DNA from: Sunxiuqinia indica
GTDB lineage: Bacteria; Bacteroidota; Bacteroidia; Bacteroidales; Prolixibacteraceae
DNA length: 64,000 nt
NCBI RefSeq assembly: GCF_009847015.1
Contig: NZ_WVEM01000003.1
Location: 310,001-374,000 of the forward strand
Direction of reading: 5' to 3'
Part shown: positions 26,427 to 45,181 of the stretch, piece after piece
Position numbering within the stretch: the stretch's first letter is position 1
How the letters are laid out: each line of letters begins with the position of its first letter
The notes under the pieces: generated by a model
What the model saw: only the letters and a program-made list of their open reading frames with translations
Databases searched by the model: none
What the model was told of the DNA's origin: nothing
Made by a program: the position numbers and the translations under genes

Positions 26427-28490
26427 TTAAAATCCTACTTTCAGTCCTATGTTGAAGACTCTTGTGAGGGGATACTGAGGACGAGAGCTGGTTCGTGATT
26501 CAGGATCGCCATATTTAAAGCTTGTAAAAGTCAGTAGGTTGTATCCACTAACGTAAACACGGCAGTTGTCAACACCAATGGTGTCAAAGGCAGGAATATT
26601 CAACTTGTAGCCTACTTCAATATTCTTTAGGCGCAGGTAGCTCGCGTCTTTCAGGAATAGATTAGAACTCTTATAATTATTGCTTCTATGATCCAGAGAG
26701 GCTCGAGGTAACTTCGCAGTTGAGGCGGTCTCGGGAGTCCATCTTTGTTCATACTGATAGAGTAATAAACCTTTTGTGTAGGTATCGCCCATTGGCTCTC
26801 TGAAGGTTTCTTCGAGCAAGCGGGAAGTATTCCATGCACCGGTCCATTGCATGCTGAAGTCGAGGTTTTTCCATGACAATCCCATGTTTGCTCCGACCAC
26901 ATATTCGGGGGTGTCGGTAAATCCAGACTTGGTAACATCGTCATTGTCGATTACCCCATCTTTATTCAAGTCGACATAAACTGCATCCCCAGGTAAAAGT
27001 CCCCCGGCATGTTCAGCAATATCCTGACCGTACTGTGCCTTGTATCTGTCATTCGCTGTTTCGTCATAGAATCCCCAAAACTGGCTGATAATTCGAGAAC
27101 CAATCGGACGACCAGTTTGCCACATATAATCTTCGTTTGGAGCAACCTCTCCCATTTCCACAATTTTGTTTCGTGCAAAAGAGAAGTTTCCTTTAACCCA
27201 GTATCTAAACTCATCGGTCAGCTGTTCATTCCACTCCATTGAGAATTCGTAACCGTGGTTGTCTACAACACCAAGATTAATTACCGGGAGGCTCGCGCCA
27301 ACAATTGCGGGGACGGTTTTGGACTGGACTAAGATATCTTCACGATGTTCTTTAAACACATCCACAGTCAATTTGAAACGTTCCCTCAAAAAGGCAAAAT
27401 CGACACCGTAATTTTGTTTGTAAGCTTTTTCCCAGGTCACATTTGGGTTTGATTTAGCGCTTTCATAAGCTCCTGGTTGATCAGATCCGACATTGGTGCC
27501 GAAGTTATAGCCGGATCCTCCCAGAACATATGAATCCGGTAAATACAAGAAACGTGAGTCTCCATATTTGTCATTTCCAACCACACCATAAGAGACTCTT
27601 ACCTTCATGTAATTAATCACATTTTTCAGATTAGCCATGAACGGTTCTTCAGAAATAACCCATCCCAAAGACCCCGCCGGGAAAAAGCCATATCGTTTTC
27701 CCGGAGCAAAGTTTTCAGATCCGTTGTATCCCATGTTGAACTCGGCCATATAACGTGTCTTATAATCATAGGTAATACGTCCGACCATTCCCACATACCC
27801 TGATGGAATATCAGTATATTGTTTCGGATAATACGTTTTGGACTGGGTGTACAATGCTAAACCACCAATGGTATGATCTCCAAATTTGCGACCGTAGTTA
27901 AAACTTGCTTCCGCATACCAGTTACGGCCTCTACCGTAGCTTTCGCCATATCCTAGTTGGGAGTCATCACCACTTTTCCGATACTCAATTGCGCCTGAGC
28001 CTGTTAAAATTGGAGTGTAATAAGGTAGGGTTGAACTTCGTGTTTTCGTATGGTCATAGCTACTATTGTACGAACCTTTTATTTTAAACGATAATCCCTC
28101 TGTCACAAAATCCAGTTTTTGGTTTAGGATCAGGTCAAGGTTTAACACATTCGTAGATCTTGCATTATAACCTTTTCCGTAAAAAGGATAAAGTCCATCA
28201 ACCCCTGGATCGTTAATATCTTCAGGATTTGTTACAACCCGATTTCCATCAATAATACCTGCACCACCAAAAGGAGTGGCCCAATAAAGCTGACGGAAAA
28301 GCTGGTTTTGGTCTTCGTTTGAAATCGGAGTATTTTTGGCTTCAATACGTCCACCTAGATTAATCGATAGTAAAGTTGATTCTGAAACATCAAAATCAAG
28401 ATTCGAACGGTAATTATAACGATTGTAGTTAAAGTTAAAATCGTAACCTGCATTAAAATGTTTTAAAAAGCCCCTCCTGTGTATAAACAC
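26427..28490 (-). pseudogene. SusC-like receptor, C-terminal part after a frameshift
   Basis: A 687-residue reading frame that contains only the barrel part of a SusC receptor (NYNRYNYRSNLDFDVSESTLLSINLGG onward, ending in TRVFNIGLKVGF). Its first codons (MFIHRRGFLK) are an out-of-frame reading of the sequence that encodes VYTQEGLFK in the upstream fragment; true homology begins at KHFNAGYDF. Joined to 28453-29619 by removing one A of an AAAA run (minus strand, 28461-28464), it gives a normal SusC of about 1070 residues. As written it has no signal peptide or plug and could not work alone. Confidence 0.85.
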
Positions 28491-29619
28491 CTAAAGAGAC
28501 GAAATACCGAATCTTTTCAACACCCCCGGAAATATTCACGTTATGCTGGGTTTGCTTGGCACCATTCTTCAACAGATAGTCCATCCAGTCTACGTCTGGG
28601 TATAAGATCGGATTCGAATGCGTTCTAAAGGCTTCTAAAACCTCTGGCTTAAATTTGTAACTTGAGGCATCGACGCCATCGTTGGCTTGCGACTCGTTGT
28701 AGAAGGAGGCATACTGGTAGCTGTCGGCAAATTCCAACAGTTTAGTCGGCACCTGCACGCCGAAAGAAGTTGAAGCTGAAATTTTAGCCTGACCTTCTTT
28801 TCCTCGTTTTGTCGTAATTAAGATGACACCGTTAGCCCCTCGAACCCCGAAAACTGCTGTAGCCGAGGCATCCTTTAATATGGTAACACTTTCAATTTCA
28901 TTGGGATCGATTTGAGTGAAGTCCCGTTCAACACCATCAACCTGAATCAGCGGAGAAGTGCTATTTAAAGAAGCCATACCACGAATATAAATGTTTGCAG
29001 CATCGGCTCCGGGCTCTCCCGAATATTGTACTGATGATAATCCGGATACAGCTCCCGACAGAGCGTTCGAGATGGAACCGGTTGGTGTTTTCAATAATTC
29101 ATCACCACCGATGGAAGAAATCGCTCCGGTAACTGTCACCTTCTTTTGAGCTCCATATGCCACCGCTACGATCTCATCCAGACCGATAGATGATTCTTCA
29201 AGAACGACATTAATCACTGTTTGGTCATCAATTGGAACTTCTTTTGTTCCTAATCCCACAAATGAAAACAATAAAGCTTCTGCATCGATGGGGGCCGAAA
29301 GGGAGTAGTTTCCGTCAATGTCGGTCACTGTCCCGGCATTGACACCTTTAATCACAACCGTTGCTCCTGGAATTCCCATGCCTGTTTGATCAGTAACCTT
29401 CCCGTTAATAGTTCTTTTTTGTTGAATTTGATTAGGTTCTGAACTTTTGAGGTTAACAGCATCGAGCTGATTTTCGGTCATCTTACTCCCGGGCAAATCT
29501 TCAGAAGCCCAAGATGTAACCATATTGCTCATGACAAACAGGCAAAGCAAGGTCATGCGCAATAAGGACTTAGCAAAGCTTTCCGGCGGAAAGCACTTCC
29601 TTGTGCATTTTTCTTTCAT
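28453..29619 (-). pseudogene. SusC-like receptor, N-terminal part before a frameshift
   Basis: 388 residues: a long N-region and signal sequence (LLRMTLLCLFVMSNMVTSWA), a carboxypeptidase-regulatory-like domain (INGKVTDQTGMGIPGATVVIKG), the SusC signature DEIVAVAYGAQKKVTVTGAISS, and the plug (LIQVDGVERDFTQIDPNEIESVTILKDASATAVFGVRGANGVI). It ends early at QEGLFKTF followed by a stop. The reading frame resumes one base further on as KHFNAGYDF in the next fragment, so a single-base insertion in a TTTTTAAAA run separates them. A sequencing error, a real mutation or slippage are all possible. Confidence 0.88.
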
Positions 29620-30972: not shown

Positions 30973-31014
30973 ATGAAGGAATAAATAAACAAGAATCAGA
31001 TAAAAGCTTTGACG

Positions 31015-34000
31015 ATGCGAGTTAATATCCTGTTATTATTATTGTTAGTTGTTGTTCCTAGCCTGTTGGTTGCGCAAAACCAAGTCCATTTTTCGCATCT
31101 GGGGATGGAGGACGGTTTCACCAACAGCAAAGCAAATACAATTATTCAAGATAGAAAAGGCTTTATTTGGGTTGGAACATGGAATGGATTGAATCGGTAC
31201 GATGGATACACCTGTACCACTTTTCAACCAATTTTTCACGATTCAACTGCGATTTCAAATCGGGAGATTGTGGAATTAATGGAAGATTCAAAGGGTAATA
31301 TCTGGATTGGAACTTCAAGCGGCTTAAATTGCCTGAATCCGAAAACAGGGCATTTGAGAAATTTTCCATTTGGAAGCCGTATTCTTTCATTGTGTGAAGA
31401 TCTTGACAACAGTATTTGGATTGGGACATGGAATGGGGGATTGTTCAACCTAATTCCTTCGACCGGCGAAACGAAACACTATTTAGCAAGCGATATTGTT
31501 AGCGATGTTCATGTTGACTCCCGCGGAATTTTGTGGGCAGCGACCTACTATGGTCTGGTAACGGTGAACCGTGAGAATGGAGCTTTCCAGCGCTATTTGC
31601 CCGGTGCATCCGCAAATTCGCTAAGTAATTCAACAATCACACAAATCACGGAGTCACATTCAGGGCAACTTTGGGTGGGTACCTGGGGAGGCGGGCTCAA
31701 TAGGTTAGATGTTTCTGATGACGGGAATGAAATTCATATTACCCGCTATCCGACCCGGATCGGAGAGGGGAGTCCCGATGCAAACGTCATTTCAAAACTT
31801 TACTACGATCAATTTGATAACCTTTGGATTGGCACGTGGAACGATGGATTACGCTTACTAAAAGCAGATCAACAAAACTTAGCTCCGGAACGGGCTCATT
31901 TCATAAGTTACATGGAAGAGCCGGACAATCCAACAAGTTTGTCCGGTGATGGCATTTCATCAATCTTTGTCGACCGAGGTGGTATTTTATGGGTGGGGGC
32001 ATCAACCATTGACCTGACGCCAATTGTTGAAACGGGGATTAGCCGTTATTCACTTCCGACCGATCAAGATGATTCGTCAACAAAATTATTTGTAAAAGCT
32101 TTTGCGGAATTTGGCAATCAGCTCTGGATTGGAGCAAACAGCACGCTGTTTCAATATGAGCTTATAAAGGGGGAATACGTTCTCCGAAAAAAATATGGTC
32201 GTCTCGAATATAAAATCGACCAGATAACTTATTTCCCGAATTCCATTCTTGATTTAGCTGCTGATTCAACGGGCTTATGGATAGGTACCGAAGATGCCGG
32301 GGTGATTCGCTATTCTTTTACCTCGGATTACTTGCTTGATCAAAACAAAAAGTTATTTTTTAACCAACAAACAACGCCGGCAATTCCTGGAAATAAAGTA
32401 TCGAGTCTCTCTGTTTCAGATAAATATCCGGGAGTCGTTTGGTTAGGAACTTTGCAAAGCGGTTTTGCCAAGCTGTTTCAAAAAGAAGATGGAAATTATA
32501 GTACTGAAATTTACTATTCTGGAAATTCACCCCAATATAGTACTGACAATAATATTCGTGCGATTTTCGAGGATCATTCGGGAAAAGTTTGGATTGGAAC
32601 ACAACACGGCCTCAATCGCTTTGATCCTGACAGCCACCTGTTCGAACACTATTTCTATTCTTCTTCGAACGCCAGTTCTATTAATGACAATGTAATCAAT
32701 ACAATTAGCCAGGATAGCTATGGAAATATATGGGTTGGCACGAATTCCGGACTCAACAAAAGAATAACAATTGCAACTCAAAATGGAAAGCAAAGAAGCG
32801 CATTTGTAGGTTACCCAGATGTCAATCACTTAAGTAATGAAATTGTCACAAACCTGCTCGAAGACGGAGCTGGTCACCTGTGGGTTCGTTTGTATCGCGG
32901 ATTTGTAAAACTCAATATCGAAACCGATAGTATTTTAGGAAAATATTTTACTAAAGATTACGAAAACATTCGTTTCGAACGAAATTCAGCATTAAAACTT
33001 AACAGCGGTCAATTTGTTCTTGATGGCCAAACCGGATTCCTGACTTTTTTCCCGGACAGTATCTTAAAAACCTCTATCGCCCCGAAAGTTGTGATTACGG
33101 ACTTTCAGATTTTCAACGAAAGTATAAGTGATAAGTCGGCAGTCTTTTCAAAGAATAAACTGACCAAGACCATTCCCTTTTCCGATAGACTAGCCTTATC
33201 TTATAGAGATAAAATGATAACATTTGTCTTTTCTGCAATGGATTATAAAAATCCTAACAAAAATTCCTATTTCTATAAACTGGAAGGCTTTGACGATCAA
33301 TGGAACGATATTGGAGCGAGAAATTCTGCCACCTATACCAATCTACCTCCGGGGGATTATATTTTCAAGGTTAAAGCTCGAAACAGTGATGGATTCTGGA
33401 GCAAAGAGGAAGCACAACTCAACTTATCCATTTCGCCACCCTGGTGGAAAACTATTTGGGCTTATTTGTTTTATGGTATTTTTGTTGCCGGGATACTTTT
33501 CTTTTTTAATAAGTACTCGTTCATCAAAGCTCAGGAAAAGAGTAACCTTGAGTTTGAAAAATTGAAAACAGAGGAGATGACCCGATTAAATGAACTCCGC
33601 TCCTTCTTTTTTACAGACATTACGCACGAGCTAAAAACTCCTTTAACTCTTATTCTTGGTCCGGCTCAGGATTTGGCAACCAATAAGGAGCTAAGTTCTT
33701 ATGCGGTGAAACAAGTGGAATTAATCAAAAACAGTGCTTACAAGCTGCTTAGGCTGGTCAATCAGCTCATGGAATTCCGAAAAATTGAGAAAGGTATCAT
33801 GGATGATTTTTTTGTGCAACGCTGCGACATTAACCAAATGATTCAAGAAGTGTTTCGTTTCTTTAAGCCGATGGCCGAGTCCCAAAACGTCAATCTTTCT
33901 ATGGAAGCAAGCGAGGAGCCTATTGTTGCTTATGTAGATCCTGATAAACTGGAGAAAGTTATGTTCAACCTCGTTTCGAATGCTTTTAAATACAACAAAG

Positions 34001-35166
34001 ACAATAGTACAATAAGCGTTCGTACTAAATTGGAACCCGATGGCAGTAATAAGTCGGTTGTTATTGAAGTAGAAGACAGTGGTATCGGGATTGCTGAAGA
34101 GCACATGGATAAAATATTTGAACGCTTTTATCAAGTCAATCAAATTAGGACTCAAAGTACCGGAGGAATTGGCCTTTATATGGCGAAAGCTCTGGTTGAA
34201 CAGCACGGTGGGACGATAGCTGTTGAAAGCACAGTGGGGAGAGGTAGTTGTTTTAAGGTAACCATCCCTATAAATCCAAGTCTGCTAAAAAATGCATCAA
34301 CAAGTATAAAAGCTCTGGATGCGACTGAAGAACGAATGGTTAATACGAATTTATCGGAAGCGATAAAAAAGGAGATTGAAAGTCCGCAGAGTGATGCCAA
34401 GAAAACAAGCGTTCTGATTGTCGAAGACGATGGCGAATTGAACGATTTTTTGGTGTCTGGCTTGATTTCTGATTTTAAGGTTAACCGAGCGTTTAACGGA
34501 AAGGAAGCATTGGAAAAAGCAAGAAGCGAGAATCCTGATTTGATTCTGTCAGATATTATGATGCCAGAAATGGATGGTTTTGAGTTTTGCAAAATCATGC
34601 GCAATGATATCAATATCTCACATATTCCGGTAGTCTTTCTGACTGCGAAAACGATGCAGGAAGATGAAATTAGAGGACTTAGACTGGGAGCTGTAGATTA
34701 TATCTATAAACCGTTTAACCTGGTTTCCTTAAAACTGAAAATTCAAAATATTCTTTCGGCTCAAAAACAGATACGGGAGCGTATTCGTAAAGACCAGATT
34801 CTCCAACCCGAGAAGATTCAATTATCGTCATTAGACGAAATCTTCTTGAAAGAGGCTGTTGATTCGGTACAAAAAAACTTAGATAATTCTAATTTTGATG
34901 TTGAAGCTTTTAGCAATGATTTGAAAATGAGTGCAAATCAGGTTTACCGAAAAATAAAAGCACTAACAGGTCAAACAGCAAAAGAATTTATTCGGAGTCA
35001 ACGTCTCAAAATTGCGGCAAATATGCTTGTGCAACGTAAGAGATCTATTTCGGAGGTAATTTACATGGTTGGTTTTACCAGTCCGTCCTACTTCACAAGA
35101 TGTTTTAAAGAATTCTACGGCTGTACACCCAAAGAATATATTGATAAAAACTCCGAAAAGGGTTAA
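31015..35166 (+). CDS. Hybrid two-component system sensor/regulator (HTCS)
   Basis: A 1383-residue one-protein signalling system that senses oligosaccharides in the periplasm and activates PUL genes. Order: signal peptide (LLLLLLVVVPSLLVA/Q), about 14 propeller repeats of the type IWVGTWNGLNRYD (to about 680), a Y_Y_Y domain (YKLEGFDDQWNDIG...LPPGDYIFKVKARNSDG), a membrane helix (about 790-815), a HisKA domain with His871 in DITHELKTPL, a HATPase domain (DSGIGIAEEHMDKIFERFYQ), a receiver with Asp1180 in ILSDIMMPEMDG, and an AraC-type HTH at the end (VYRKIKALTGQTAKEFIRSQR). The ATG at 31015 is preferred over a TTG two codons earlier. Divergent placement suggests it controls the GH16-SusC/D unit. 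Confidence 0.97.
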   Translation: MRVNILLLLLLVVVPSLLVAQNQVHFSHLGMEDGFTNSKANTIIQDRKGFIWVGTWNGLNRYDGYTCTTFQPIFHDSTAISNREIVELMEDSKGNIWIGTSSGLNCLNPKTGHLRNFPFGSRILSLCEDLDNSIWIGTWNGGLFNLIPSTGETKHYLASDIVSDVHVDSRGILWAATYYGLVTVNRENGAFQRYLPGASANSLSNSTITQITESHSGQLWVGTWGGGLNRLDVSDDGNEIHITRYPTRIGEGSPDANVISKLYYDQFDNLWIGTWNDGLRLLKADQQNLAPERAHFISYMEEPDNPTSLSGDGISSIFVDRGGILWVGASTIDLTPIVETGISRYSLPTDQDDSSTKLFVKAFAEFGNQLWIGANSTLFQYELIKGEYVLRKKYGRLEYKIDQITYFPNSILDLAADSTGLWIGTEDAGVIRYSFTSDYLLDQNKKLFFNQQTTPAIPGNKVSSLSVSDKYPGVVWLGTLQSGFAKLFQKEDGNYSTEIYYSGNSPQYSTDNNIRAIFEDHSGKVWIGTQHGLNRFDPDSHLFEHYFYSSSNASSINDNVINTISQDSYGNIWVGTNSGLNKRITIATQNGKQRSAFVGYPDVNHLSNEIVTNLLEDGAGHLWVRLYRGFVKLNIETDSILGKYFTKDYENIRFERNSALKLNSGQFVLDGQTGFLTFFPDSILKTSIAPKVVITDFQIFNESISDKSAVFSKNKLTKTIPFSDRLALSYRDKMITFVFSAMDYKNPNKNSYFYKLEGFDDQWNDIGARNSATYTNLPPGDYIFKVKARNSDGFWSKEEAQLNLSISPPWWKTIWAYLFYGIFVAGILFFFNKYSFIKAQEKSNLEFEKLKTEEMTRLNELRSFFFTDITHELKTPLTLILGPAQDLATNKELSSYAVKQVELIKNSAYKLLRLVNQLMEFRKIEKGIMDDFFVQRCDINQMIQEVFRFFKPMAESQNVNLSMEASEEPIVAYVDPDKLEKVMFNLVSNAFKYNKDNSTISVRTKLEPDGSNKSVVIEVEDSGIGIAEEHMDKIFERFYQVNQIRTQSTGGIGLYMAKALVEQHGGTIAVESTVGRGSCFKVTIPINPSLLKNASTSIKALDATEERMVNTNLSEAIKKEIESPQSDAKKTSVLIVEDDGELNDFLVSGLISDFKVNRAFNGKEALEKARSENPDLILSDIMMPEMDGFEFCKIMRNDINISHIPVVFLTAKTMQEDEIRGLRLGAVDYIYKPFNLVSLKLKIQNILSAQKQIRERIRKDQILQPEKIQLSSLDEIFLKEAVDSVQKNLDNSNFDVEAFSNDLKMSANQVYRKIKALTGQTAKEFIRSQRLKIAANMLVQRKRSISEVIYMVGFTSPSYFTRCFKEFYGCTPKEYIDKNSEKG

Positions 35167-35405
35167 GGTTTTAATAATGAAGCTAGCTTTTGCATTTAAA
35201 AAAATGCGCACTTCCAGCCTTGATAAGCGTGTTTGTTGTTTTTTAATCGAATTTGTGCAAGCAAGTTTCGAATTTCGGCAAGCCATACTTCCTCTTTTGA
35301 TACTATGTTTGTTCTGAAAGAGAGCGAAGAGAATATTTAGTTGATCGAAAATCACATCAAGCAATATTCTCCCTTAAGTCAAACAAAAAAAGAGATAGAA
35401 CGAAG

Positions 35406-36578
35406 ATGAAGAAGAAACCAGCAGTAACATCAAAGAAATTATATCTGTCACTGTCACTATTAGCCATAGTTGCACTAGCTAGTTGTAAATTCAAAGAACA
35501 GGAAGCGAAATACAACCATAGTTTCAAGCCTGGCAAGATTTGGGTTGACACAGACAGTCTTCACATTAATGCCCATGGTGGAGGTATTTTGTATTATGAC
35601 AATACCTACTATTGGTTCGGAGAGTTTAAGACTGCCGGGCCTGATGGAAACTCGGCACAGGTAGGTGTAAGCTGCTATTCATCAACCGACCTGTATAATT
35701 GGGAGAATGAAGGTATTGTTTTACCTGTCTCTAATGAAGCCGGATCTGATATTGAGAAGGGAAGTGTGATTGAACGTCCGAAAGTGATTTACAATGAGAA
35801 GACGGGTAAGTTTGTGATGTGGTTTCACCTTGAGTTGAAGGGCCAGGGCTACGGCGCTGCAAGAACAGCTTTGGCAGTGAGCGACAATGCTGTCGGTCCA
35901 TACACATTTGTTAAGTCATTGCGCCCGAATGCTCAGCAATGGCCAATGGATTATTCTCAGGAATTGAGAACGAAAGCGTATGATCCTGAATTGAAATGGT
36001 GGACACCAAGTTGGTACAAAGCCATTGACCAAGGTATGTTTTTACAGCGGGACTTTGAAGGAGGACAAATGTCGCGCGATATGCAGCTTTTTGTGGATGA
36101 TGACGGAAAAGCATATCACATTCACTCATCGGAAGACAATCTGACTTTACATATTTCGGAACTCACGGATGATTTCCAGGGGTTTACAGGCAGATATACC
36201 CGCATCTTTCCTGCGGGACATAACGAAGCTCCTGCACTTTTCAAAAAAGATGACATCTATTATCTAATGGCTTCTGGTTGTACTGGTTGGGAGCCGAATG
36301 AAGCCCGCATGTTCGAAGCAAGATCAATATGGGGGCCATGGGATTCTTTGGGTAACCCATGTGTTGGCGAAGATGCTCATCTGACCTTTCATTCGCAAAG
36401 CACTTATATTTTGCCTGTTCAAGGTAAAGAAGACGCTTTCATTTATATGGGTGACCGATGGACTCCGGAAAATCCGATTGACGGCCGTTATATTTGGCTA
36501 CCCATTCAGTTCGATGAAAGCGGAAAGCCAGTTGTCAATTGGTACGATGAATGGAATTTATCCATCTTTGATAATTAA
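35406..36578 (+). CDS. GH43-family lipoprotein (exo-beta-1,3-galactanase-like)
   Basis: A 390-residue lipoprotein (lipobox VALASC, Cys27) with a five-bladed propeller. The first blade reads INAHGGGILYYDNTYYWFGE, close to the AHGxGIL...YYWxGE block of GH43 subfamily 24/34 proteins, in which the usual catalytic-base aspartate of that blade is absent. SVIERPKVIYNE carries the conserved glutamate/arginine of blade 2, and PAGHNEAPALFKKDDIYYL the likely acid. By analogy it may remove galactose from a beta-1,3-galactan, but subfamily assignment is from memory of motifs. It lies between the sensor and the third SusC/D unit, in the sensor's direction. Confidence 0.85.
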   Translation: MKKKPAVTSKKLYLSLSLLAIVALASCKFKEQEAKYNHSFKPGKIWVDTDSLHINAHGGGILYYDNTYYWFGEFKTAGPDGNSAQVGVSCYSSTDLYNWENEGIVLPVSNEAGSDIEKGSVIERPKVIYNEKTGKFVMWFHLELKGQGYGAARTALAVSDNAVGPYTFVKSLRPNAQQWPMDYSQELRTKAYDPELKWWTPSWYKAIDQGMFLQRDFEGGQMSRDMQLFVDDDGKAYHIHSSEDNLTLHISELTDDFQGFTGRYTRIFPAGHNEAPALFKKDDIYYLMASGCTGWEPNEARMFEARSIWGPWDSLGNPCVGEDAHLTFHSQSTYILPVQGKEDAFIYMGDRWTPENPIDGRYIWLPIQFDESGKPVVNWYDEWNLSIFDN

Positions 36579-36981: not shown

Positions 36982-38697
36982 TTAATTGTATCCCGGGTTT
37001 TGTTCCCATTGTACATCTTTGTTGCGCTGTATTTCGCTTAATGGAATCGGTAACAACAGAAGTTTTGGATCAAGTCCGCTGATTTCTCCCTTAATTGAAC
37101 TATCGGTATTTAATTTAGCACGTTCAATCAACGTTCCGGTACGCATCAGTGTTATCCGACGGTTTTCTTCAGCGAATAGCTCACGTGCGCGTTCGTCGAG
37201 GATAAAGTCCATTGTAATATCAGATGAGGTCACTTTCCCCAGGTCAGCGTTTCCACTTTCCTGACGAGACATTTTAAATGCCCTGTCGCGCAATACGTTA
37301 ATATCGTCTGCAGCACCAGATGAATTACTTTGCTTGAAACGAGCTTCGGCCCGAAGCAGGTAAGTTTCACCCAAACGCATCATTGGGAAATCTTTGATAT
37401 TCGTCCAACCCCACTGGTCAGTAGGATCGAATGAATCCCATTTGCGTGTATAAGGGTACGCGACTTCCAAAGTATCACTAGCGGCAATAATAGCTGTATC
37501 ACCTTCCTGAACCTCTATCACTTTAACAGCGTCAGGAGAGTCAGCAGCAACTCTAAATCCGTTGGCATCAATACCAACTGTTGCACTAAAGCCCGGCGCG
37601 TTATAATAAAAGGTTCTTGTTATGTTATTTTCTGAATTACGGATATCACCGTCTTCGTACAACTGGTATTTTACCCAATTACTTGGTCTCATCCGACCGT
37701 TACCCCGACCGCCATAAGGATGTACAAAATCATCACCTACACCATCGTAAACATAAGTCATGCCAGGCAAATTATGGTATGCAGGCACCCAATTACGTCG
37801 TTGCTGAGGAGCTTCGGTAAAACCACCGGAAATACCACCCTTGTTGTATTCCAATTCAAAAGTCCAGATTGTTTCAGTATTTCCCTGAGAACGTCGTTGG
37901 TTACCGAATTTGAACATGTCGCTGAAATAATCGCCATTGACGCCTAACGCAACGCCATAGCGTTCCTCAACAAGTGAAAAAGCTTCACTAGTAATAATTT
38001 CGCTTAGTATCGGTTCTGCTAATTCTGGTTTATCTATTCGCAAATAAGCTTCACCTAAACATTGCATAGCCATGTATTTGTTCGCACGGCTTTCGTTAAC
38101 AGCTTCATCAATACCCGGTAGGTTATCGGCAGCATATTTCAAATCTTCAATGATTTGATCATTGACTTGTTCAACAGGTGTACGAACAAGGTCGGTTCGT
38201 GCTGAGGATGTTGGCTCAGTAAGCAGCGGAACATCTCCGTAAAGCGTGGCCAAAATATTGTAGCAGTACCCCCGGAAGAACAATGCTTCGCCAATTTTTG
38301 CGGGATCGCCATCTTCTCCAATTGCTTTTAAAGCGGTGTTGGCGTTGTTGATGATTAAAAAGCACCTTTCCCACATCCGGCTAACGGCTTGATTCTCCGA
38401 GTTTAGTTCTTCATATTTAAAGAAAGGAATTTCAACTCCTTCTATTCCCCCCGGCGAAGCTACGTCGGTTCCTTCCTGCCAGACAGCATTCCAGCCCTGG
38501 CGCCCTGCCCAGGTCCATATTGTTCCAAAATTATAATGTAATCCTTTTAATGCGGCTTCTATACCAGCTTCATCAGATAACGTTTCTGGTGCATACGACG
38601 ACATTGGTGTCTCATCTAAGAAATCTTCGCTACATGAGACGGCAATCAGCGTAAATGCCATCAATAATAATAAGATGTGAATTTTATTTGTCTTCAT
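36982..38697 (-). CDS. SusD/RagB-family lipoprotein (pair 3)
   Basis: A 571-residue SusD homologue (lipobox TLIAVSC, Cys22, followed by SEDFLDETP, the commonest SusD N-terminus). RMWERCFLIINNANTALKAIGEDG...ALFFRGYCYNILATLYGDVPLL is the helical core; FILDERARELFAEENRRITLMRTG and the end VQWEQNPGYN are also typical. It is paired with the STN-domain SusC 11 bases upstream and should sit on top of it in the outer membrane. Confidence 0.97.
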   Translation of the reverse strand: MKTNKIHILLLLMAFTLIAVSCSEDFLDETPMSSYAPETLSDEAGIEAALKGLHYNFGTIWTWAGRQGWNAVWQEGTDVASPGGIEGVEIPFFKYEELNSENQAVSRMWERCFLIINNANTALKAIGEDGDPAKIGEALFFRGYCYNILATLYGDVPLLTEPTSSARTDLVRTPVEQVNDQIIEDLKYAADNLPGIDEAVNESRANKYMAMQCLGEAYLRIDKPELAEPILSEIITSEAFSLVEERYGVALGVNGDYFSDMFKFGNQRRSQGNTETIWTFELEYNKGGISGGFTEAPQQRRNWVPAYHNLPGMTYVYDGVGDDFVHPYGGRGNGRMRPSNWVKYQLYEDGDIRNSENNITRTFYYNAPGFSATVGIDANGFRVAADSPDAVKVIEVQEGDTAIIAASDTLEVAYPYTRKWDSFDPTDQWGWTNIKDFPMMRLGETYLLRAEARFKQSNSSGAADDINVLRDRAFKMSRQESGNADLGKVTSSDITMDFILDERARELFAEENRRITLMRTGTLIERAKLNTDSSIKGEISGLDPKLLLLPIPLSEIQRNKDVQWEQNPGYN

Positions 38698-38708: not shown

Positions 38709-41700
38709 TTATAATGTTAGATTAATTCCGAATACTATTGTTCTCACACTCGGGTAATTGATTTCCCAGTTATCAGAACCACGTCCAATGCTTCTTTCTT
38801 CAGGGTCCCATCCAATCCAGTCGGTGAAAGTGTAGAGGTTACGTCCGCTAACATACAAACTTAAAGCGTTCAATCCTGCTCTGTCTAGTATCCTTTCAGG
38901 AACATCATAATTAAGTGTTATATCTTTTATCCGGGTAAAGTTGTTTTTTACAGGGAATCGATATCCATGAGGATTGGAATTCTTATTCAATGAACGCCAT
39001 TCGTTGCTTTGATTTTCCGGAGTCCAGTATCCGATTTCAACAAAACTGTTCCTGCGTTCTATTTCGTCTGAAGCCATACCAATATGGGCATTGTTACGCA
39101 TGGCGCCTTGCACGGTCTGTATAAAAACATTTAAAGTGAAGTTTTTGTAAGTAAAGGTATTGGTTAATCCGCCTGTCCATTTTGGAGCAGTTTGCCCAAG
39201 AATTGCACGGTCGTCATCTGTGATAACGCCATCTGGTACTCCATCAGGACCGCTAATGTCTTCTACTTTTACATCACCAGGCTTGGCGATCGGATCCCAA
39301 TCTAAGTGGTCACCGTTGGCAATTTCGTCTTCCTGCCAGATACCTGACATTTTATAATCGCGGATCACCCCAATAGGTTCACCGATAAACCAACCACTAC
39401 CTAAGTCATCTTCTCCATCTCCATATAGCTCGACGATCTCAGATCTATTGGTAGAAAAGACGATGGAACTGTTCCAGCGAAAATCATTTGAATTGACATT
39501 AACCGTGTTCAAAGTAAGTTCAATACCCTTAGTCGAAGTTTCACCAATATTGGCGGTTACCTCAGGAAAACCTGAAGCCGCAGGTAGTTTTCGAGACAGT
39601 AGCAGATCCGTGTTTGTGGCAGAATATACATCAAGTGTTCCGTTAATGCGGTTATTGAAGAAACCGAAATCCAATCCAAGGTTGAAGCTTTCTTTTGTTT
39701 CCCAACTTAAGTCGCTGTTACCTAGTCGGTCAGTAACCATGGCTATGTTGGTTGCTCCGCCAAACGGTATTTGCACGTCGCGCATGGTTGTAAATGTCCG
39801 GTATACTTGAACAGCCTCGTTACCAGCCTTCCCGTATGATAGTCTGAGTTTTAGGTTAGTGATATTGTTTGCGTTACTGAGGAAATTTTCATTTCGCATA
39901 TTCCATCCCAGTGCTACTGATGGAAAGACACCATACTTTAGATCTTGTGAAAATACAGATGAACCATCACGGCGAACGGTAAAGGTAAACAGGTAACGGC
40001 TATCAAATGAGTAATTCAAACGTCCCATTTGTGATACCGCAGCATACCGGTCGGCATAAGAACTTACAGCCGAACTTGCACCAGCCTGCATTCTGTTCCA
40101 CTCCAACTCGTCGTTAACAAAATCGCGTGCCTGGGCCCAGTTATCCTGGTAATTACGTTCCTGAGAAGAGTAAACAGCGGTGATGTCAAAATGATGCTTA
40201 TTGATGTCGCGGTTGTATTGCAAGATGTTTTCAATCGTATAAGCCTGAGTCTCATAATGGTGAATCTCGGCTGTTCCTAGTAGGTCGTTTTGTGATTGCC
40301 CACTATAGGTGTTGGTACGTCTGGGGTTGAAAGTATAGCCTGCATTCAGTTTATAAGTTAATCCTTTTAATGGTTTCCAGATATCACCAAACGTTACGTT
40401 GGCAAAACCATTCAAATTGACATTGAACTCGCGGCGTTCAGGGTCTCTGGTTGTGGGAAGCAAAGGGTTTGCCCACAAGGTTTCGCCAAACATTGGGTAA
40501 ATCGTATACGATCCGTCTTCTTCGTACATTCTGCCGTATGGACTCATGGCTTCCGCGTTTAATAGATTGGCCCGGCCTCCATCTCTGTTGTGTGCGACAA
40601 CTGAAGAATTTGTTCCTACCTTTAGATAATTGGTAACCTGAGCGTCAATGTTTGTTCTAAAAGAATAGCGTTTGTAATTATAGCCTTTTACAACACCTTT
40701 CTGGTCTAAAATGTCTCCTGAAACATAGTAGTTGATGTCTTCGTTACCTCCTGAAATGCTGACATTGTGATTTTGCTGAATACCTGTTCGGGAGACTTCA
40801 TCAATCCAGTCAATCGTATGACCGTTTGCGTAATTTTCCACTTCGTATTGATATTTAACAGGCGCTTCGTATAACGGAGAACCATTGATCCGGTTTCCCT
40901 CTGCATAGCGCTCAAGCAACCCTTCCGGTGACACCATCTCGGGGACATGGGCAAATTCTTCAACACCGAAATATCCTGAATACCTAATCTGAGGTTCAGT
41001 CGTCCCTCCGCTTTTTGTTGTAACAAGAATAACTCCGTTTGCTCCGTTCATCCCATAGATCGCAGTTGCTGATGCATCTTTCAGAATTTCGATCGATTCA
41101 ATATCATTTGGGTTAATGTCGTTGATTGAGCCACCCATTTTTGAGATAGGGATACCGTCAACGACAACATAAGGATCGGTTTTGGCAGTAAGAGATCCTC
41201 CGCCCCGAACCAAGATCGAAGGGGCTTCACCGGGTATAGAAGACACTTGCTGAATGTTAACCCCGGAAACAGAACCTTGCACTGCTTGCATCACATTAGA
41301 TACTGGTATTTTTTGCAGGCGTTCTTTCGAAACTGAAGTTACTGATCCGGTGATGTCTGATTTTTTCTGGGTACCGTACCCCACGACAACAATCTCATCA
41401 ACCCCAATTGCTTCTTCGTTCAGAGTTACGGAAACATTCTGTTTGTCTCCTACCAGAATTTCCTGGCTGGCCATTCCGACAAATGAGAAGATTAACACAT
41501 CGTTAGAAGCCGCTTCAATCGAGTAGTTTCCATCAAAGTCAGTAATTGTTCCAACAGTGGTTCCTTTAATAACAACTGTAACTCCGGGGAGAGAATTGCC
41601 TTCTGAATCAGTTACTTTACCCGTAATTTTAGCTTGTTTTGTAACTGTTTGTTCCTGAGATTTTTCGGGAGTAATAATAATTTGGCGATCCATCACCATG

Positions 41701-42029
41701 TATTTGACATCTTCTCCCTGAAAGAGTTTGTCGAGTACCTCTTCAATACTCTTGTTTGAAATTTTAACACTTACGGTTTTGTCAACGTCAACCAAGTCGT
41801 TGTTGTAAAGAAAGTAGTAGTTTGTTGTGTTTTCAATTTCTTTCAGAGCATATTTAATCGAAGTCTGATTAAGGTCCAAAGAAATCTTTGAACTTTGCGA
41901 GTAGGTTCCGGAAGCGATGCTACTCAAGACAGAGAAGCATATAAAAAACACGGTTAGTTTCATAATAATAAAAACTCTTAAGCGGACGATCTTTTGCAAG
42001 AAGCCCCGCACATTTACATTTTTTTCCAT
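38709..42029 (-). CDS. SusC-like TonB-dependent transducer with STN domain (pair 3)
   Basis: An 1106-residue receptor that both imports glycan fragments and signals. After the signal sequence (MKLTVFFICFSVLSSIASG) comes an STN domain (ISLDLNQTSIKYALKEIENTTNYYFLYNNDLV, about 48-125), which in this family touches the FecR anti-sigma factor. Then a carboxypeptidase-regulatory-like domain (ITGKVTDSEGNSLPGVTVVIKG), the signature DEIVVVGYGTQKKSDITGSV, the plug and the barrel. The STN domain together with the sigma/FecR genes just upstream means expression is likely switched on through trans-envelope signalling. Its leader is overlapped by the predicted antisense RNA at 42043-42135. Confidence 0.97.
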   Translation of the reverse strand: MEKNVNVRGFLQKIVRLRVFIIMKLTVFFICFSVLSSIASGTYSQSSKISLDLNQTSIKYALKEIENTTNYYFLYNNDLVDVDKTVSVKISNKSIEEVLDKLFQGEDVKYMVMDRQIIITPEKSQEQTVTKQAKITGKVTDSEGNSLPGVTVVIKGTTVGTITDFDGNYSIEAASNDVLIFSFVGMASQEILVGDKQNVSVTLNEEAIGVDEIVVVGYGTQKKSDITGSVTSVSKERLQKIPVSNVMQAVQGSVSGVNIQQVSSIPGEAPSILVRGGGSLTAKTDPYVVVDGIPISKMGGSINDINPNDIESIEILKDASATAIYGMNGANGVILVTTKSGGTTEPQIRYSGYFGVEEFAHVPEMVSPEGLLERYAEGNRINGSPLYEAPVKYQYEVENYANGHTIDWIDEVSRTGIQQNHNVSISGGNEDINYYVSGDILDQKGVVKGYNYKRYSFRTNIDAQVTNYLKVGTNSSVVAHNRDGGRANLLNAEAMSPYGRMYEEDGSYTIYPMFGETLWANPLLPTTRDPERREFNVNLNGFANVTFGDIWKPLKGLTYKLNAGYTFNPRRTNTYSGQSQNDLLGTAEIHHYETQAYTIENILQYNRDINKHHFDITAVYSSQERNYQDNWAQARDFVNDELEWNRMQAGASSAVSSYADRYAAVSQMGRLNYSFDSRYLFTFTVRRDGSSVFSQDLKYGVFPSVALGWNMRNENFLSNANNITNLKLRLSYGKAGNEAVQVYRTFTTMRDVQIPFGGATNIAMVTDRLGNSDLSWETKESFNLGLDFGFFNNRINGTLDVYSATNTDLLLSRKLPAASGFPEVTANIGETSTKGIELTLNTVNVNSNDFRWNSSIVFSTNRSEIVELYGDGEDDLGSGWFIGEPIGVIRDYKMSGIWQEDEIANGDHLDWDPIAKPGDVKVEDISGPDGVPDGVITDDDRAILGQTAPKWTGGLTNTFTYKNFTLNVFIQTVQGAMRNNAHIGMASDEIERRNSFVEIGYWTPENQSNEWRSLNKNSNPHGYRFPVKNNFTRIKDITLNYDVPERILDRAGLNALSLYVSGRNLYTFTDWIGWDPEERSIGRGSDNWEINYPSVRTIVFGINLTL

Positions 42030-42036
42030 AGATTTG
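42029..42036 (+). promoter_or_regulatory. -7 element for a predicted antisense RNA
   Basis: TAGATTTG matches the Bacteroidota -7 consensus TAnnTTTG exactly, on the strand opposite to susC and overlapping its first base. A clear -33 TTTG at the right spacing is not seen. The predicted start is about position 42043. Confidence 0.45.
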
Positions 42037-42042
42037 TAACGT

Positions 42043-42135
42043 ATTAGTTAATACAATTTTAAACTGACCTGAATTTGTGGTTCAGGTTAAAGATCTGAAG
42101 CAGGGGAGTGCGCCAACACTTTCCTGTTTTTTTTT
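42043..42135 (+). ncRNA. Predicted antisense small RNA in the SusC leader (DonS-like)
   Basis: Between the FecR gene and SusC the plus strand shows a full small-RNA layout. It has the -7 element, a hairpin ACCTGAA / TTCAGGT (42067-42087), and a strong terminator: CAGGGGAGTG (42101-42110) pairs with CACTTTCCTG (42117-42126, two G-U pairs in plus-strand RNA) and is followed by nine T. The RNA would be about 93 bases and complementary to the SusC leader. Bacteroides fragilis DonS-type RNAs sit at the same place in sigma/anti-sigma-controlled PULs and repress SusC expression. The 5' end is an estimate. Confidence 0.55.
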
Positions 42136-42184
42136 ATCAATTAGTTTACATAGGCAAGTTCATTAATAGTTATAGCAATTGAGT

Positions 42185-43204
42185 TTATTTTCTTGATAAA
42201 ACGACTTTCTGTTTGTTCTCATCGGATTTAACAAAGTAATAGTCTATCGGTGACATCAGGCTCAGGAGATGCAACACCTGTTCTAAGGAATTATCCCGGA
42301 ACGTGCCTGTAATGTGTTCCTTCAATAGTTCTTTATCTTTTACTTCGATTTTTATATTATACCAGTTTCCTAAGCGGGAAACGACCTTTTCGATCGGATC
42401 ATCAAAAAAAACGATTAATCCTTCACGCCAAGCTGTGTATCGATCAAGGTCTGTTTCTTTCAAGTGTAGAATTTTGTTGGTATTTCGTTGGTAAGTGGCC
42501 ACCTCTAAGGGATCAAGGTCGAGTACATGTTTCGAACTGCCATTGGTCGTTTTTAACAGGCTGACTTTTCCTTCTTTCAGAGCAACCGTTATTTCATCTT
42601 CATTTTCATAAGCATTGACATTGAACGAGGTTCCCAGTACTCTAACATCCAAGCGGGAGGTAGAAACGATGAACGGGTGCTTGCTGTCCTTGGTGACCTC
42701 AAAGAATCCTTCACCCACCAGCGTTACTTTGCGTTGTTGCTGATTTTCAAATGAAGTTGGGAAACTCAGTCGGCTGCCAGCGTTTAGCCAGACCGTCGTT
42801 CCATCGGCTAGTTGAAGTTGGGTTTGTGTCCCATAAGCCGCTTTCACTTCCTGGTAAATAGCTTCGTCTTCGTTTTGATCCAGCCGGGTGAGAAAATGGA
42901 AGGCAGAGGCTATGAATACCGATAAAACCAAAACCGCTGCGGCCTGCTTCCAATAAGTTAGCCAATGTGTTTTTCGGTTGAACTCAGGAATATCCTTTTT
43001 TGATTCTTTTAAGGCAAGTTCTGTATCAATCTTATCGTTTAAAGTCAGCAGTCTGGAGTCTTTCCATAGTTTCCGGTAAGCCTCAAATGATTTTTTATTG
43101 GCTGATGATTGATTGATCCAGTTGGTTATCTTTCGTTTCTCTTCTGGGGTTGAATGACCAGAAAAGTCTTTAATTATTAATGATTCGATCTGCAATTTCT
43201 CCAC
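42185..43204 (-). CDS. FecR-family anti-sigma factor
   Basis: A 339-residue inner-membrane regulator. The N-terminal cytoplasmic part (MEKLQIESLIIKDFSG...) would hold the sigma factor, a single membrane helix lies at about 86-105 (AAAVLVLSVFIASAFHFL), and the periplasmic FecR domain follows (KAAYGTQTQLQLADGTTVWLNAGSRL...EGFFEVTKDSKHPFIV...VLGTSFNVNAY). The C-terminal part (DNSLEQVLHLLSLMSPIDYYF) resembles an STN-like domain. It lies between the sigma factor and the STN-SusC, the usual order for this circuit. Confidence 0.96.
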   Translation of the reverse strand: MEKLQIESLIIKDFSGHSTPEEKRKITNWINQSSANKKSFEAYRKLWKDSRLLTLNDKIDTELALKESKKDIPEFNRKTHWLTYWKQAAAVLVLSVFIASAFHFLTRLDQNEDEAIYQEVKAAYGTQTQLQLADGTTVWLNAGSRLSFPTSFENQQQRKVTLVGEGFFEVTKDSKHPFIVSTSRLDVRVLGTSFNVNAYENEDEITVALKEGKVSLLKTTNGSSKHVLDLDPLEVATYQRNTNKILHLKETDLDRYTAWREGLIVFFDDPIEKVVSRLGNWYNIKIEVKDKELLKEHITGTFRDNSLEQVLHLLSLMSPIDYYFVKSDENKQKVVLSRK

Positions 43205-43278: not shown

Positions 43279-43863
43279 TTAGTGAGTTATCCGATAAATT
43301 AAAATGACAATCGGCAGGTAGTCTTGTAGTTTCGAACGAAGCATTTTTAATGATCGACTCATTAATCCTTCCACTGCTTTTACTGAGATGCCCATTTTTT
43401 TTGCTATCTCCGGATAGGTCAGGTTTTCAAACCTGCTGTATTCAAAGGCAATTCTGCAACGGTCGGGCAGTTGGGTAAGTGCCTGCACCAGTTTCTCTTC
43501 AAACTCATGAGAGAGTAATTGTGCATCAGCTTGACGATCGTTGGACTTATTGGCTATAATCTTATTCAATTCATGATGATGTGGCTCTTTACGTATATGG
43601 TCGATGCATTTATTGCGAACCATAAATGATAGATATGAAGATAAATTCTCAATAGTATCGACTTGATTTCGTTTTTCCCAAAATTTTATAAAGCAATCCT
43701 GTACAAGGCTTTGCGCAAGGTCAAGATCATTAAGGTAAATGTTTGCTTGAGCACACAGGGCTTTGTAATACTTTCTGAAGATAAAATCGTAAGCTTTTTC
43801 CTGACCTTCTTTTAAAGCCAGAATTAGAAATGCATCATTCTCTATGAATTTGTTTACCATCAA
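43279..43863 (-). CDS. ECF sigma factor, FecI-like
   Basis: A 194-residue extracytoplasmic-function sigma factor. Region 2 is visible (DLAQSLVQDCFIKFWEKRNQ...YLSFMVRNKCIDHIRK), and region 4 follows (LTQLPDRCRIAFEYSRFENLTYPEIAKKMGISVKAVEGLMSRSLKMLR). It should direct RNA polymerase to the SusC/D unit, and is probably released when the STN-SusC meets its glycan. It is 74 bases upstream of FecR. The start could also be the ATG one codon further on. Confidence 0.96.
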   Translation of the reverse strand: MMVNKFIENDAFLILALKEGQEKAYDFIFRKYYKALCAQANIYLNDLDLAQSLVQDCFIKFWEKRNQVDTIENLSSYLSFMVRNKCIDHIRKEPHHHELNKIIANKSNDRQADAQLLSHEFEEKLVQALTQLPDRCRIAFEYSRFENLTYPEIAKKMGISVKAVEGLMSRSLKMLRSKLQDYLPIVILIYRITH

Positions 43864-44016: not shown

Positions 44017-44424
44017 TTAATCGATACTCTTAAATTCGTTAATGGTTGAATCTGCCAGTTCATAACTCGGTTTGTAGTCATCTAAACGGAAGAATCCGGT
44101 AGTCATGCGGTGAAGTTCTCCATGAATTTGCTCCATGGATTGCGTAATACGCGATCGGAACAAACTGGCACAATTGGTACATGGAGATCCTTGGATATCG
44201 ATCGTTTCGTTAAATGCCGATTTCAACTCATCAATGGAGTCATCATATTGTCGGTCAGCAAAAAAATCTTGAGAATTTAGCAGACATTGATTTATTGCAG
44301 ATCGTTTTTTCGCGCACTTACGTCCGTTATATTGACAGCTGACAAATTGTATCGGTTCACTTTTTAATATTCTTTCACGTTTTCCACTTAGCCGTGAAAA
44401 AATCCATCCCTTCGTTTCTTTCAT
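44017..44424 (-). CDS. Unrecognised four-cysteine protein, copy 1
   Basis: I do not recognise the family. Starting at the ATG at 44422-44424 (aligning with its paralogue) gives 135 residues without signal peptide or membrane helix. The motif set is PIQFVSCQYNGRKC (C-x6-C), DRQYDDSIDELKSAF, SPCTNCASLFRSRI (C-x2-C) and MTTGFFRLDDYKPSY. The four cysteines are shared with the protein at 44768-45181, suggesting a bound metal or a redox pair, which is inference. It probably forms its own transcription unit, ended by the hairpin at 43951-43993. Confidence 0.75.
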   Translation of the reverse strand: MKETKGWIFSRLSGKRERILKSEPIQFVSCQYNGRKCAKKRSAINQCLLNSQDFFADRQYDDSIDELKSAFNETIDIQGSPCTNCASLFRSRITQSMEQIHGELHRMTTGFFRLDDYKPSYELADSTINEFKSID

Positions 44425-44767
44425 TATTTCTATACTAAAATTATCACTAGCACACACTGCTTATCCTTTTCACGAATCGAAAAAATATAGAAATCCCTTT
44501 TGCTATTTTTAATATACGCTTAAAACTAATTAAATATTTGGGAAATATAAAGCGGTATGTTATACAAGATGTTTATAGAAGTGGTAAGGGGCACCCAATT
44601 TTGTTTTAATGATTTTTAACATTTTATCGATTTATAGTAAGAATGTTGTGTCGAATGTGGTCGCTTAGGTCAATTAGCATTAATTACAGGAGTGGAAGTT
44701 TGGTGAACTTATGATTTTTAAAAGCTGAGGGTGAATGTGATAGCCTGATTTCGTTTTGACTGCAAGT
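44425..44767. other. Gap between the two four-cysteine genes
   Basis: About 340 bases of AT-rich sequence with no supported gene, repeat or clear terminator. It probably holds the promoter of the copy-1 gene, but no convincing TAnnTTTG was found. Confidence 0.4.
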
Positions 44768-45181
44768 TCATTTGTTAAGTTGTTTGAGTTCTTCCATCAC
44801 CAAAACAGCATATTGGTAACTGGGTTTGTAACGCCTGGAACCGAATAAGCCTGTTGTCATTTTTCGCAATTCCTGATTTACTTGCTCCATAGATTCTAAA
44901 ATCCGATGCCGAAATAAGTTTGCGCATTGATTGCATGGACTATCTTGCAGATCAAGTGTTTTGTGAAAGGCAGCCTTTAGTTCATCAATGGAATGATTAT
45001 ACTGACGATCTTGAAAGAGTTCGTGGGAGCTTTTGATACTCTTATTGATTTCTGATCGCTGATCGATACAGCGATTCCCTCCGCGCGGACAATTTTCCAG
45101 ATGAATAGGGTTATTTTCATTTGTACTCTGACCACCATTCTTTTTTAAAGAAGAAAATTCCCAGTCTCTTTTATTCGTCAT
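44768..45181 (-). CDS. Unrecognised four-cysteine protein, copy 2
   Basis: A 137-residue paralogue of the protein at 44017-44424; more than half of the aligned residues in the last 80 positions are identical. Shared blocks are NCPRGGNRC, DRQYNHSIDELKAAF, SPCNQCANLFRHRI, SMEQ and MTTGLFGSRRYKPSY. It is predicted soluble and mostly helical. The pair probably arose by tandem duplication. The function is unknown; no named domain is recognised. Confidence 0.75.
   Translation of the reverse strand: MTNKRDWEFSSLKKNGGQSTNENNPIHLENCPRGGNRCIDQRSEINKSIKSSHELFQDRQYNHSIDELKAAFHKTLDLQDSPCNQCANLFRHRILESMEQVNQELRKMTTGLFGSRRYKPSYQYAVLVMEELKQLNK

Follow-up and report, generated by a model that had tools for sequence, protein, structure and literature searches.

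A predicted DonS-like antisense RNA at the start of a FecR-linked susC gene in Sunxiuqinia indica, and the recurrence of its layout in other Bacteroidota

The stretch of Sunxiuqinia indica DNA analysed here (64,000 nucleotides, hereafter the window) carries, on the minus strand, genes for an ECF sigma factor (43279-43863; Sigma70_ECF domain), a FecR anti-sigma factor (42185-43204; FecR and FecR_C domains), a SusC with an N-terminal STN domain (38709-42029) and a SusD (36982-38697), all recognised as open reading frames and assigned by domain searches. This SusC, the presumed target of the RNA described below, has its closest relative, among the matches listed, in a Sunxiuqinia MAG (86% identity). 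The gap between FecR and susC measures 155 nt, and the antisense layout lies on the plus strand, opposite both genes. Convergent to susCD, a hybrid two-component regulator and a GH43 gene occupy 31009-36578 on the plus strand, so that the PUL may be under two kinds of regulator. Upstream of the sigma factor gene, two adjacent minus-strand ORFs (44017-44457 and 44768-45181) code for proteins that resemble each other (146 and 137 aa; CTNCASLFR and CNQCANLFR stretches), and a SusC-like gene at 26430-29415 on the minus strand, which gave a two-piece match with three internal TAA in one piece, is probably broken.

At the beginning of susC, the plus strand reads TAGATTTG (42029-42036), an exact match to the -7 box whose first T lies opposite the A of the susC ATG. 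Taking the box as positions -12 to -5, a rule described for Flavobacterium psychrophilum in passages of PMC9723704, places the predicted +1 at G42041 and delimits a predicted antisense small RNA of ~95 nt (42041-42135, plus strand). It would begin at the predicted +1 with a small 5' hairpin (GUAUU-AGUU-AAUAC, 42041-42054), which is fully paired in seven of nine aligned sequences and absent from their RNAalifold consensus, continue with a middle hairpin with a CCTGAA/TTCAGG core (42065-42089), supported by folding, aligned relatives and RNAalifold, and end in an intrinsic terminator (42097-42135) with a 14-pair stem, a 6-nt loop and nine T at 42127-42135, found by folding and by a terminator scan (hairpin at 42097-42130, plus strand). 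The exact -7 match, a hairpin and the nine-T terminator opposite susC had been picked out in a sequence-only reading of this DNA, and their positions hold to the base; the plus-strand RNA of about 90 bases proposed there becomes one of 95 nt here, likewise a prediction. A sigma-70 promoter scan was disregarded, the model being unsuited to Bacteroidota. Of the two elements of a sigma-ABfr promoter, the -7 box (TAnnTTTG) is exact in the window and recurrent elsewhere, and no conserved -33 element (TTTG) was seen over 35 loci from the same genome; according to passages in PMC7366714, a -33 element is likewise not identifiable in Flavobacterium johnsoniae.

The predicted RNA folds with -31.9 kcal/mol (z -4.75; none of 200 shuffles equally good), and the reverse strand of the same stretch with -18.1 kcal/mol (z -2.12). 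A search of the window against Rfam returned no family at gathering score, and weak matches (SprD, GibS and others), far under the cut-off, were taken as chance. The RNA is complementary to susC positions -12 to -106 and leaves the AUG uncovered. Very probably, judging from these features, the DNA upstream of susC yields an opposite-strand RNA of ~95 nt that is able to pair with the importer message.

The best reading of this layout, to which we give a probability of roughly three in four, is a cis-antisense small RNA of the DonS kind that would be transcribed from the opposite strand, pair with the susC leader and act as a releasable brake on SusC. A housekeeping-sigma promoter with its -7 box overlapping the susC start codon would drive the RNA, whose 5' end would lie ~12 nt upstream of the AUG and whose 3' end would lie at the intrinsic terminator, ~106 nt upstream. 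Perfectly complementary to whatever of that stretch the susC mRNA contains, it would pair with the leader, masking the region upstream of the AUG and/or sending the message to decay. Bacteroidota ribosomes are thought to need this region, and we propose that leader pairing would thereby keep SusC low without glycan. A signal through the STN-type SusC and FecR would free the ECF sigma factor and raise sense transcription, which would swamp the RNA and overrun the antisense promoter, and so, as we propose, release the brake. A brake acting in the uninduced state is proposed because the paired RNA would occupy the leader just ahead of the AUG and because the sense polymerase has to cross the antisense promoter. 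The analysis shows the sequence, its register, the terminator, the strand of the structure and the recurrence; the production of the RNA, the reach of the susC leader, the pairing, the repression of SusC and its release we infer.

The extent to which the susC mRNA overlaps with the RNA depends on the susC 5' end; one susC leader in Bacteroides thetaiotaomicron is 77 nt long, as taken from figures in PMC11697453. Computed with the unfolding cost left out, cognate pairing between RNA and leader amounts to -121 to -203 kcal/mol, and non-cognate pairing with other susC leaders has a median of -32 and a minimum of -89 kcal/mol, values that, taken without a shuffled control, speak neither for nor against action in trans. 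Among PUL-associated antisense RNAs of B. thetaiotaomicron, both correlation and anti-correlation with their susC are indicated in a figure legend of PMC10994844, which we counted against the brake.

The layout recurs throughout the genome of S. indica. FecR_C gave 52 matches in it; 12 of them, in open frames of 523-1152 aa and mostly STN parts of SusC, did not count as FecR; 35 of the 40 FecR genes are directly followed by a SusC gene, and the other five (L029, L032, L037, L039 and L040), with no adjoining SusC, were dropped. A strict antisense TAnnTTTG, placed so that its first T faces the A of the susC ATG, is found at 29 of these 35 loci (at L019, the box was counted at a later in-frame ATG), and a box with at most one mismatch at 34. 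A stem with T-tail is present at 31 loci (10 shuffled sets average 1.5), and the strict box and a terminator-like stem occur together at 26. The four loci without the relaxed joint signature are L004, with neither box nor stem, and L006, L011 and L014, where the box is present and the strict stem count failed. Lengths predicted for the RNA at 31 loci, the window included, range from 69 to 113 nt (<78 nt in 11). The 35 loci give the consensus TTTTTTTTTCAT-AAATTTG, and 74% of them have a purine at the predicted +1. On the sense strand, the pattern CAAANNTATGAARAA has 29 matches genome-wide, 27 of which are FecR-linked susC starts, the remaining two being an unrelated gene and a 7-codon frame.

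With the box located at the start codon, CAAANNTATG could also be the translation-initiation context of susC and no antisense promoter. Bacteroidota rarely use Shine-Dalgarno sites, which we counted in favour of this explanation, and two of 17 SusC genes without FecR in the same genome (L203 and L206) have the one-mismatch form of the box. The strict form, in contrast, occurs at none of these 17 genes and at none of the 29 other window ORFs of at least 200 aa (one-mismatch form: 1/29), TA and TTTG are less variable than the two N positions when frequencies are taken from all 35 loci rather than from loci preselected for the box, and a terminator lies on the antisense strand at a matching distance downstream. 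Together, these observations make an initiation context very improbable as the explanation of the box.

The 17 control genes derive from 18 SusC genes without FecR, with L214 excluded for a broken frame. Three of them have a stem with T-tail, L206 included, and given the boxes of L203 and L206 the relaxed signature is not fully specific. The signature of L206 (C36 of the same genome), a one-mismatch box at the ATG and an upstream stem with T-tail in a gene without FecR, may be either chance or an antisense RNA beyond the FecR loci. Among 81 ORFs of at least 150 aa in the loci of the same genome, the strict box occurs at one and a box with at most one mismatch at three, and the one-mismatch box is found at 146 of 5572 ATG triplets, susC starts counted in. 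We also inspected 24 of the 49 SusC homologues listed. In seven, the match to the query begins no later than residue 30 and therefore covers the STN domain; five of these carry the strict box (L041, L042, L047, L052 and L066) and two the one-mismatch box (L069 and L070). No box, even with one mismatch, was found in the 17 homologues that match from residue 86 or later, which include four from Draconibacterium with 78-80% identity to the window SusC and in which the absence of STN was judged from the match start, not from a domain search.

Ten other genomes were surveyed in the same way: two Parabacteroides, a 'Bacteroides sp.' MAG, Segatella copri, Draconibacterium, Carboxylicivirga, Galbibacter, Niastella, Hufsiella and Rufibacter. 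Their 80 FecR loci, chosen as high-scoring FecR_C matches and not at random (for instance, 20 of 52 in G188 and 10 of 68 in G192), came down to 74 with the removal of six without SusC (L136, L175, L176, L180, L188 and L191). The strict box stands in the same register at 33 of the 74 loci, and 33 are without the joint signature of relaxed box and stem. Over all 109 loci in the 11 genomes, the strict box is present at 62, a box with at most one mismatch at 86, a stem with T-tail at 79, the relaxed box with a stem at 72 and the strict box with a stem at 55. A single offset, overlapping the ATG, holds 62 of all 82 antisense TAnnTTTG matches; six of these 62 (L019, L124, L133, L157, L164 and L190) count from a later in-frame ATG with the motif, to which we shifted the start. 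Every one of the 11 genomes, which we take from their genus names to represent the Prolixibacteraceae, Marinilabiliaceae, Tannerellaceae, Bacteroidaceae, Chitinophagaceae, Sphingobacteriaceae, Hymenobacteraceae and Flavobacteriaceae, has at least one locus with the box (at most one mismatch), stem and T-tail, which bears out the earlier expectation that the layout would extend to another lineage than Bacteroides.

In two genomes of Segatella's family, the strict box and the stem with tail are each found at 9 of 19 loci in G199, and at 0 and 1 of 15 loci, respectively, in G201, where gaps are mostly short (L250, L251, L260, L262, L264 and L272 of this set are without SusC, and the start of L282 was moved to a later in-frame ATG with the motif). 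Given this partial presence, and the lack of the strict box in G201, the layout is widespread but not universal. A restriction to the family of S. indica, suggested by CAAANNTATGAARAA over 148 genomes of the phylum (at most eight matches each, except for the 29 in the genome of S. indica), was later refuted; it was wrong because the pattern is too narrow, partly owing to its Lys-Lys codons.

The number of susC-start motifs tracks that of FecR_C matches across 41 mutually related genomes, those of S. indica and 40 relatives (Pearson 0.98, Spearman 0.86; reversed-motif control, 0.27 and 0.25). FecR_C also matches some STN domains, so the axis stands for the whole system and not for FecR alone. 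Single genomes hold between 0 (G185) and 76 (G170) copies of the motif, as if the module multiplied along with the PULs. The fixed register amounts to a sequence rule, with the box at the susC ATG and the end of the terminator hairpin ~66-108 nt after the predicted start (10-90% range), that allows RNAs of this kind to be predicted from the DNA sequence alone, to be tested locus by locus.

The stems themselves indicate which strand carries the structure. They were counted with a strand-symmetric search in gaps of 60-260 nt, which kept 96 of the 109 loci, and 82 of the 96 stems, those with at least eight Watson-Crick pairs, entered a strand test that ignored the outer three pairs. Inner G-U pairs on the antisense strand number 93 against 2 A-C (62 against 1 by locus; sign test p ~1e-17, uncorrected for relatedness), and a T-tail is found on the antisense side of 79 of the 82 stems and on the sense side of 9. 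The G-U excess and the T-tails on the antisense side therefore identify the antisense RNA as the folded one, the one seen by selection.

A DNA search with this stretch of the window matched 53 of 140 genomes of the family, that of S. indica included, and the short matches listed fall mostly into two blocks, which correspond to the box (query ~19-56) and to the terminator (~97-137). From the 20 related loci tried, L307 gave no box and was left out of the alignment. The nine closest sequences, window included, all retain box, middle hairpin and terminator; in them, 93.5% of cells are paired (91.1 in shuffles) and three pairs have changed on both sides, a number reached by 8 of 500 shuffles and including one change from U-G to G-U. 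The covariation score is 0.140, compared with 0.097 in shuffled and 0.026-0.085 in slid versions, and further pair types do not exceed those in shuffles (11 vs 10.6). Support from covariation thus appears real but not large, limited because many pairs never vary. With RNAalifold, the nine sequences give the middle hairpin and the terminator, and a set of 19 gives the terminator alone.

The hairpin might instead act in the sense susC mRNA, where it would serve in attenuation or affect stability, or in the DNA, as a palindrome that overlaps the ECF promoter. Such a role would fit with the composition of the arms: 74 of the 82 stems have a G-rich antisense 5' arm and 4 a C-rich one, and among the nine sequences the one-sided changes in the terminator stem are mostly G/A in the 5' arm, with the 3' arm, CACTTTCCTG, nearly invariant. 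Against it, the sense strand has A-C mismatches wherever the antisense strand has G-U (93 vs 2), its fold in the window is the weaker one and its T-tail is mostly missing, and we therefore regard such a role as highly unlikely to account for the hairpin; a second, sense-strand constraint on the terminator stems is possible. An ECF -35 element (GGAA) within the sense arm, present in only 30 of 82 arms, was unsupported.

The conservation pattern also bears on whether the RNA matters at all or is a by-product of transcriptional interference, in which a polymerase bound to the promoter across the susC start would block or collide with the sense polymerase. The position of the promoter is fixed and the sequence of the RNA is not, with the stretch between box and terminator diverging widely among the loci of S. 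indica, as interference would allow. The retention of the terminator and the middle hairpin, with some compensatory changes and strand-specific G-U, in contrast, exceeds what a roadblock would need, and the loops on the mRNA side are enriched for YUNR, if modestly (25 of 65 vs 11.9 +- 3.0 in shuffles; antisense side, 17 vs 12.4). We thus consider interference an improbable explanation, and the DonS-like RNA remains the preferred reading.

DonS-like RNAs are linked to PULs with an ECF sigma/anti-sigma pair, and DonS of Bacteroides fragilis reportedly goes back to Cao et al. in 2016. Like the window RNA, DonS and its kin are small, antisense to susC and present several times per genome; they belong to Bacteroides, whereas the window RNA comes from another lineage, and the likeness is one of layout. 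Passages in PMC7366714 describe DonS-like RNAs as 78-128 nt long and divergent to susC, with ten detected in B. thetaiotaomicron, among which BTnc009, -055, -077, -249 and -123 were validated by Northern blot, and a passage in PMC9723704 gives antisense RNAs at 15 PULs. According to passages in PMC11697453, DonS represses its PUL by a mechanism left open, and translation of SusC is repressed by FopS close to the start codon. The predicted RNA lies on the opposite strand, over the upstream part of susC, in the context of an ECF sigma factor, FecR and an STN-type SusC, its predicted 95 nt fall within 78-128 nt, and it has an intrinsic terminator of its own. In layout, strand, size and gene context, the DonS-like interpretation offered by the sequence-only reading is thus in agreement with published descriptions, and is supported at the sequence level.

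The PUL-associated antisense RNAs of B. thetaiotaomicron share their orientation to susC with the window RNA and differ from it in that their expression was shown, that of the window RNA being predicted. The FopS/GibS family of Bacteroides likewise comprises short RNAs; FopS belongs to a sequence-conserved paralogous family with 14 members (four antisense RNAs) and many targets, according to passages in PMC11697453, whereas the window RNA would owe its complementarity to the opposite strand, and the GibS model (Rfam RF04182) scored 18.5 bits, below its gathering cut-off of 115. The kind of RNA is thus already known, reported as DonS-like RNAs from gut Bacteroides in the literature searched. 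With respect to that literature, two points are new: the RNA is predicted for further lineages, and its -7 box is locked to the susC start codon, a lock that may already show in DonS.

Outside the RNA, the window carries on the sense strand the conserved element GCCTATGTAA (42146-42155, minus strand), identified by motif counts. Between the FecR stop and the terminator, GCCTATG occurs on the sense strand in 23 of the 64 gaps with room for it, against 0.13 in shuffles (loci include L013, L020, L024, L122, L124, L126, L140, L156, L164 and L199), and 23 of 34 occurrences in 113 gaps are followed by an in-frame stop within two codons, whereas the two other frames give 4 each and shuffles 5.4. On a plain reading, GCCTATG plus stop is a candidate start-stop mini-ORF of the FecR-susC region; a literature search for such start-stop elements in Bacteroidota found none. 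A second GCCTATG in the window (20485, minus strand) was set aside as probably coding, judged from the sequence read there, without annotation.

The mini-ORF could be the third part of a leader module shared across Bacteroidota by ECF sigma/FecR/STN-SusC systems, in which the antisense promoter would be fused to the susC start codon, a single DNA word serving both starts, and which would act as an on/off switch of SusC, with sense transcription erasing its own brake, and be copied with every new PUL, to dozens per genome in some species. We put this joint proposal forward tentatively, as doubtful in its entirety. If the signature holds, antisense control would be built into sigma/anti-sigma glycan sensing in many Bacteroidota, with tens of copies in some genomes.

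A further short element, TTAATA, is found close to the 5' end of the antisense RNA at 21 of 72 loci, against 4.6 in shuffles; in the window, it lies at 42048-42053 on the plus strand, overlapping the 3' half of the 5' hairpin.
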